A stretch of DNA of 64,000 nucleotides from contig OW568870.1 of NCBI GenBank assembly GCA_938743325.2, forward strand, positions 310,001-374,000, written 5' to 3'. The position numbers were made by a program, and so were the translations under genes. The stretch comes from Pycnococcus provasolii. Taxonomy: Eukaryota; Chlorophyta; Pseudoscourfieldiophyceae; Pseudoscourfieldiales; Pycnococcaceae. The notes beneath the pieces were generated by a model. That model had not been told where the DNA came from and did no database searches. It was given only the letters and a program-made list of their open reading frames with translations. The number at the start of each line of letters is the position of its first letter. Position 1 is the stretch's first letter. This document shows, one piece after another, positions 41,270-42,176 of the stretch.

Positions 41270-41370
41270 ATAAGGAGGAGCGTGAGAATCAGCTCGACCG
41301 CAACGTGTTCTCGATAGAACAACTTGATTTTCGTCGCGGCGTGCGTCACGTGGAACACCACTCTCTCGAC
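41270..41370 (-). promoter_or_regulatory. candidate type-2 SECIS element
   Basis: In the 3' flank of the FrnE-like gene, about 127 nt past its stop. On the minus strand the 5' quartet GTGAC (TGAC at 41348-41345) faces TGAT (41291-41288), giving the U.U, G.A, A.G, C.U pattern of a SECIS kink-turn. Between them is a 13-bp helix with one A.A mismatch and one bulge (GCACGCCGCGACG with CGTTGCGGTCGAGC), then AAAA (41331-41328) in the apical internal loop and a 6-bp ministem TGTTCT-ATCG-AGAACA. Weak flanking pairing GAGTG/CGCTC could form stem I. I folded it by hand; GTGA in place of ATGA and the mismatch are weaknesses. Confidence 0.5.
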
Positions 41371-41379
41371 TATTTTTTT

Positions 41380-41409
41380 CATAAAATATCAGGAGAAGGA
41401 TATTTTATG
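41380..41409. terminator. AT-rich hairpin between convergent genes
   Basis: CATAAAATATC and GATATTTTATG form 11-bp perfect arms around an 8-nt loop AGGAGAAG. It lies between the stops of the bL32m-like gene and the FrnE-like gene, so could act in 3'-end formation. T-runs flank it. Confidence 0.45.
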
Positions 41410-41474
41410 AGCACCTGGGTGCAGTTTCCTTCTCCGCCTTTACCGTCAGCCACCGGACGGAACGACGGGCGTGA

Positions 41475-42176
41475 TTATGCGACGCCAATAGCCTCCTCAA
41501 TCGCCTCGGCAAGAATGTCGGGAGGCTGTGCGCCGCTAAGGTGGTACTTGCCGTCGATAATAAAATAAGGAACGCCGCGAATCTGGTGACGACCGGCGAA
41601 GGCGCGCTTTTGGTCCTCCACCGTATCAGCGAACGCGGTGGGGTCGTCAAGCACCTTGGCGGCGTCTTGCAAACCCACCGCCTGTGCCGCCGCTAGCAAC
41701 ACGTCGCGGTCAGATACACACTTCTCGCGCGTGAAGTAGTCCTTGAACAGTTCTTCGACGAGCGCGTTTTGCGTGGCATAGTCGTCGTCAAGGCTTTCGG
41801 CGTATGCGAGCAGCCGGTGCGAGTCGAATGTGTCGCCGACATTTCCCCCGATGGAGTACGTCTCCCCCATTTCCGCGAACGTCGCCGTCATTGCCTCGAC
41901 GATGGCAGGCGCACGAGCGCCAAACTTACGCTCGTACAGTTCCCTTTTGTTCATGCCTGACCCAGGCGGGAGCGTGGGGTCGAGCGTGAACGGCCTCCAT
42001 CGCACTTGGACTCCTCCCCCTGACTGAGACTCCCTCTCAGGGTGGCGGGTCGCGACCAAGGCGAGCGCCGACGCGAGGCGGCGCTTGCCCACGAAGCACC
42101 ACGGTCAGATCGTGTCCGACACCACGTCCACGACGACTCGTCTTCCATGCGAGAGACCACGAGATGCGGCCGCCAT
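41475..42176 (-). CDS. FrnE/DsbA-like thiol oxidoreductase, likely selenoprotein (U-P-W-C)
   Basis: Reading from ATG 42176 gives MAAASRGLSHGRR, then VVVDVVSDTI, an in-frame TGA (42107-42105, residue 24), PWCFVGKRRLASALALVA and on to TAA at 41475: 233 aa counting the TGA as selenocysteine. The family (DSBA-like, FrnE/2-hydroxychromene-2-carboxylate isomerase-like) has D-x-V-C-P-W-C-x-x-G-K at this place, so TGA replaces the first redox Cys. Downstream, VQVRWRPFTLDPTLP, GDTFDSHRLLAYAE, ALVEELFKDYFTRE, RGVPYFIIDGKYHLSGAQPPD (cis-Pro loop) and a last helix complete the family. Without reading through TGA the protein would lose its redox site. There is no clear targeting signal. A SECIS-like fold follows in the 3' UTR. 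Alternatively the TGA is a nonsense change or sequencing error. Confidence 0.75.

Follow-up and report, generated by a model that had tools for sequence, protein, structure and literature searches.

On chromosome 10 of the green alga Pycnococcus provasolii, a minus-strand reading frame related to the FrnE/DsbA oxidoreductases contains a TGA codon, which raises the question of whether this codon ends translation or encodes selenocysteine (Sec). The first-pass annotation had read the gene as a probable selenoprotein. The stretch of DNA analyzed here, called the window, is 64,000 nucleotides long and corresponds to positions 310001-374000 of chromosome 10 (C10) in the assembly ucPycProv1.2. This assembly of P. 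provasolii CCAP190/2 is reported to have 44 chromosomal scaffolds that span 32.2 Mb, of which chromosome 10 accounts for 0.97 Mb, and an N50 of 757,545 bp, together with a 24.3-kb mitochondrial genome and a plastid genome (PMC11130579). The window gene starts at ATG 42176, the sole in-frame ATG 3′ of the preceding in-frame stop (TGA, 42212-42210), and its 233 codons, which extend to position 41475, include a single in-frame TGA (codon 24, 42107-42105). The TGA is followed by CCG TGG TGC (P W C), and 209 codons separate it from a normal TAA at 41477-41475, exactly as first annotated. The features of the locus are:

41475-42176, minus strand: FrnE/DsbA-like (PF01323) gene, predicted to encode a selenoprotein; 233 codons from ATG to TAA, with the TGA read as Sec
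42105-42107, minus strand: in-frame TGA, codon 24, predicted selenocysteine replacing the first Cys of CPWC (UPWC here); from the sequence and the alignment
42096-42098, minus strand: TGC, Cys27, the second and presumably resolving residue of UxxC; from the sequence and the homologues
41562-41576, minus strand: codons of residues 201-205 (GVPYF), which presumably form the cis-Pro loop; from the sequence and alignment A3
41475-41477, minus strand: TAA, the terminating stop; from the sequence
41288-41349, minus strand: predicted form-II SECIS; from the descriptor search and folding

For the profile and homology programs, the TGA was entered as C, and it is written as U in our reading. The protein matches the Pfam family DSBA (PF01323) with 105.9 bits, over the curated cut-off of 25.6, and the match covers the whole domain, from residue 15 to 226 of the protein and from position 1 to 190 of the 191 in the profile. 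The frame is thus collinear with the FrnE/DsbA proteins when the TGA is decoded, as the first-pass annotation had claimed, and the motif is aligned without gaps. The sequence contains the UPWC (UxxC) motif as well as the GVP loop that the family requires. Both landmarks that had been noted further downstream, GVPYF (41576-41562) and GAQPPD, are present in the protein, and the proline of GVPYF is taken by us to be in the cis configuration. The matches to solved proteins include the FrnE structures 5cp1 (E 6.5e-26) and 5cnw (E 6.6e-26), and SCO1869 (3gl5, E 1e-22). In all three, the first Cys of CPWC aligns with residue 24 of the window protein, and residues 16-39 of the query are gapless. These proteins are similar to the window protein over nearly the full length and have the motif at the same place, but they represent Cys forms (CPWC), whereas the window protein has UPWC.

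A database search identified 220 homologues, of which the best 120 were listed and aligned. In the region around residue 24, where the first-pass annotation had placed the first redox Cys of the family, the TGA column contains a Cys in 108 of the 120 listed homologues, which confirms this placement. Another two have a Trp, and ten have no residue at the site, eight of which begin after it and two of which are gapped there. The column of Cys27 is occupied by Cys in all 110 listed homologues (of 120) that have a residue at this position. The G, V and P of the cis-Pro loop are invariant in alignment A3, in which 45 of the 120 listed homologues are aligned with the window protein. The in-frame TGA is thus aligned with a Cys in the homologues and is surrounded by conserved sequence on both sides, as in selenoprotein genes. 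The two Trp residues belong to the database proteins P0025 and P0034, which read DTIWPWC at the Sec/Cys site, and may represent a TGA that was rendered as Trp by the gene caller.

The region downstream of the gene was searched with our own descriptor script (TGA, 9-15 nt, AA, helix II, 3′ GA). Two MAFFT alignments of SECIS-like elements from other loci (A1, with eight, and A2, with seven sequences, neither of which included the window element) brought the 5′ core into register but not the 3′ arm, and a covariance model was therefore dropped in favor of this script. The descriptor identified one SECIS-like element 3′ of the window gene, with the core xTGA..AA..GA and a distance of 126 nt from the TAA to the core TGA. 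The element has a form-II layout, with a GUGA core (41349-41346), a helix II of 12 pairs, an unpaired AAAA (41331-41328), a minihelix in the apical loop and a 3′ UGAU (41291-41288). Most SECIS elements of Chlamydomonas and Ostreococcus are reported to have GUGA instead of AUGA (PMC3473315). Between the stop codon of the window gene and the element, at 41379-41410, there is also a perfect 12-bp inverted repeat (TCATAAAATATC / GATATTTTATGA) with a loop of 8 nt.

To assess how often such an element arises by chance, we required a GTGA core and set the other thresholds to the weakest values observed among seven further SECIS-like elements of the genome; these settings were chosen after the window candidate had been seen. 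With these thresholds, the element of the window gene is the only hit on the two strands of the window. A total of 78 hits were obtained in 40 shuffled windows, one strand each (2,560 kb), or 0.030 per kb, which corresponds to about 0.009 expected hits per 300 nt and about 4 per 128 kb, and the lone hit in the window is therefore not significant by itself. When the 300-nt downstream stretch that contains the element was itself shuffled, there was a hit in 3 of 3,000 shuffles. The shuffles thus indicate that about 0.1-1% of 300-nt stretches would contain an element of this type by chance, and the weight of the candidate comes from its position behind the stop of the window gene, not from its uniqueness in the window.

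The folding energy of the element is unremarkable (z -1.84), with 7 of 200 shuffles folding equally well, and it is the fourth of 14 window positions by energy if any TGA core is allowed. When a longer piece around the element is folded, the lower part of the element is paired differently in the minimum-free-energy structure. The Rfam model SECIS_1 gave no match to the window element, either at the gathering cut-off or at E<=10. Since the model also found nothing in the entire P. provasolii genome, nor in 14 prokaryote control genomes, its sensitivity here is low and its silence is uninformative. We also ran the descriptor on 14 loci in this genome, 11 of which are TGA-bearing and three of which are without TGA. 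There was a hit at eight of the 11 TGA-bearing loci (L003, the window gene, and L004, L009, L010, L013, L015, L016 and L018), and the best hit has a GTGA core in all eight; a weaker second hit at L015 has TTGA. The descriptor gave no hit at the TGA-bearing loci L011, L014 and L020, although inspection of L014 by eye revealed an element like that of the MsrA gene L018 with a longer apical loop. The SECIS-like stretches of L018 and the GPx gene L014 open with 24 identical bases (GTGACGTGCGAATGCCAGCAAAAC), which suggests a common origin or exchange between the genes. As for the loci without TGA, the descriptor found nothing at L012 and L019, and one hit 663 nt downstream of L017, with a CTGA core and seven pairs. 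The energy of this hit is as low as -23.9, which means that energy alone cannot tell true from false SECIS elements.

To learn whether the alga could decode UGA as Sec, we searched the genome (32,333,900 bases in 46 contigs) for the Sec machinery, with the 14 prokaryote genomes as controls. Only matches above the cut-off were counted, since the models for tRNA-Sec and selD match all 14 controls at E<=0.001. A tRNA-Sec was identified on C2 (69.5 bits, above the cut-off), which ARAGORN classified as tRNA-SeC with the anticodon tca, and a second, weaker match on C45 was classified by ARAGORN as tRNA-Ser. SepSecS was found in two pieces on C27 (249.2 and 75.2 bits), together with a third match on C10 (41.9 bits). 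Domain III of eEFSec (euk_SelB_III) was located on C5 (119.7 bits) and selD on C14 (265.2 bits). In the controls, matches above the cut-off were obtained for tRNA-Sec in five, SepSecS in three, eEFSec in none and selD in two of the 14 genomes. The search for a eukaryotic PSTK gave one weak match of 21.9 bits versus a cut-off of 382.35. Thus, tRNA-Sec, SepSecS, eEFSec and SPS are all represented in the P. provasolii genome, including the tRNA-Sec and eEFSec to which the first-pass annotation had tied its reading.

The genome also contains several other genes with an internal TGA. A TGA was present in both Rdx matches, a SelW with CGAU and a SelT-type gene, in four of five GPx matches, in the single Sep15/SelM match, in two of five MsrA matches, and in both DsbA/FrnE matches, which represent the window gene and a second locus, L004. 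Judging from the motifs, we take the TGA in the SelW, SelT, GPx, SelM/Sep15-type and MsrA genes to be the known Sec site of each family. One of the two MsrA-like loci, L020 (C31:113913-114335), has its TGA in GCQUFW and two later TAA codons within the match; the descriptor found no SECIS there, and the locus is possibly an intron-containing gene or a decaying copy.

Could the TGA of the window gene nevertheless be something other than a Sec codon? The gene might be a decaying or truncated copy, in which translation really ends at the TGA and the 209 later codons are dead or are translated from a downstream start that leaves out the active site. In line with this, P0001, the database cluster of the window gene itself and one of the eight listed homologues that begin after the site, starts at the GTG of residues VRWRPF, after the Sec site. 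Late protein starts are the usual product of gene callers where a TGA interrupts a frame, and this may apply to the eight homologues. Although P0001 represents 21 sequences from 10 contigs, its label assigns it to the window itself, and the cluster is therefore of little use as a guide to other strains. We consider a decaying copy very improbable: the remaining frame is intact, the protein as a whole shares 35-50% identity with the 45 homologues of A3 (of the 120 listed), a protein without UPWC would be one without the redox site of its family, and there would be no explanation for either the SECIS-like element or the other selenoprotein genes with a TGA. It is still less probable that the gene encodes an ordinary Cys-type FrnE, with a Cys codon that appears as TGA through an error in sequencing or assembly. 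The TGA and the Cys codons differ by a single base, but with the reported QV of 58.2 at 444-fold HiFi coverage (PMC11130579), a miscalled base at this particular position is very unlikely. Also against such an error are the SECIS-like element downstream and the presence of TGA in the second DsbA-family gene, in the SelT, SelW and SelM/Sep15-type genes, in the MsrA gene L018 and in four GPx genes. An intron that removes the TGA is just as far-fetched, because even though the removal of any of 59 GT-AG stretches (40-400 nt, covering the TGA) leaves an open frame, the first AG past the TGA is in codon 31, so that every such intron takes at least codons 24-30 (UPWCFVG), positions that are nearly invariant in the 120 listed homologues and gapless in the alignment around the TGA. 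We set all three readings aside.

We conclude that the window gene is, with high probability, a nuclear FrnE/DsbA-type selenoprotein gene of P. provasolii, in which UGA codon 24 is read as Sec by means of a form-II SECIS. The grounds for this lie at the sequence level, namely the collinearity with the family, the TGA in place of Cys in the redox column, the SECIS-like element, and the tRNA-Sec and Sec enzymes. With the other TGA-bearing genes, the lack of an intron that spares the motif and the low expected rate of base errors, they support the probable selenoprotein that was first annotated. From these data we infer read-through of the UGA, selenium in the protein, and the activity and mechanism of the enzyme. 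UGA codon 24 would be decoded by tRNA-Sec(UCA), delivered by eEFSec and directed by the form-II SECIS with its core 126 nt past the UAA. In the protein, Sec24 would act as the attacking selenolate and Cys27 as the resolving thiol, and the UPWC site, which is predicted to face the cis-Pro loop, may be used in thiol-disulfide exchange with a client.

The first-pass annotation had further suggested that a FrnE-type selenoprotein in a eukaryote could be new. This suggestion does not hold, as such proteins are already in print, under the name of either FrnE or DsbA, from green algae and marine animals. A Sec-FrnE is reported for Mamiellophyceae and Mesostigma viride, and the 2019 paper describes it as absent from all other sequenced genomes of Archaeplastida (PMC6627142). 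A DsbA selenoprotein in which Sec replaces the upstream Cys is reported for Micromonas, Ciona and Branchiostoma (PMC2874816), as well as for further marine invertebrates (PMC3473315), and FrnE (DsbA) is entered in SelenoDB 2.0 (PMC3965025). A survey of algal selenoproteomes, whose main text does not include Pycnococcaceae, counts DSBA among the Sec proteins with the widest distribution (PMC7539508), and marine metagenomes are reported to contain DsbA families with a UxxC motif as well as one family with UxxV (PMC2398784). The main text of the paper on the Ostreococcus selenoproteome does not mention DsbA/FrnE (PMC2375036). The protein of Pycnococcus is thus not new in kind, as Sec forms of FrnE/DsbA are known from Mamiellophyceae and Mesostigma as well as from Ciona, amphioxus and further marine invertebrates.

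As in Mamiellophyceae and Mesostigma, the Pycnococcus protein is a FrnE-type oxidoreductase with Sec in a green alga, but Pycnococcus belongs to another class, the Pseudoscourfieldiophyceae. It shares with the reported animal DsbA selenoproteins the replacement of the upstream Cys of CxxC by Sec, along with the fact that the Sec part was missed by annotation, and the DsbA genes of two Ciona species are reported to have a form-II SECIS, as predicted here. By contrast, the genes in Ciona, Branchiostoma and other invertebrates are animal genes described with several exons, whereas the window gene is one open frame. Our literature search, which covered publications outside the supplement of the 137-species algal survey, found no report of a Pycnococcus selenoprotein, and in the main text of PMC8629427, Pycnococcus is unnamed and the lone "selenoprotein" concerns a filter. 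Pycnococcus thus adds a further green-algal class to the carriers of Sec-FrnE, which within Archaeplastida were reported to be only Mamiellophyceae and Mesostigma in the 2019 survey (PMC6627142), and bears on the question of whether Sec-FrnE is ancestral in green plants. For a marine picoalga, the selenoprotein mechanism as such is nothing unusual, and the published reference assembly contains genes that are likely truncated by standard gene callers.

The second locus, L004 (chromosome 2, C2:1235045-1235698, plus strand), is a divergent DsbA-family gene that reads SDTMUPNGYIGKR, with Gly replacing the second, resolving Cys. Counted from the T of the TAG of L004, the core TGA of its SECIS-like element is 58 nt downstream. 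A tree of 20 proteins separates the groups of the window gene and L004 with 100/100 support; the rows were picked from the two homologue searches, and the tree therefore shows only that the groups are distinct. The literature search found no paper in which UPNG and selenocysteine occur together, a negative result that is weak evidence because motifs often appear only in figures. We tentatively propose, as a reading that falls somewhat short of probable, that Pycnococcus has two Sec-containing DsbA-family proteins and that the one with UPNG belongs to a separate, undescribed one-selenol subfamily, which would be widespread in plankton protists, with Sec as the rule and almost all database proteins cut just after the Sec codon. 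The search for relatives of L004 found at least 195 among 8,000 candidates scored, and the best 120 of 195 were listed. As many as 118 of the 120 listed relatives start after the Sec site, with 87 beginning 14 residues past this position. P0327 covers the site and has CPNG, and P0270 extends past it but consists of gaps there. The record among these 120 that is named P. provasolii, P0241, is a late-starting protein too.
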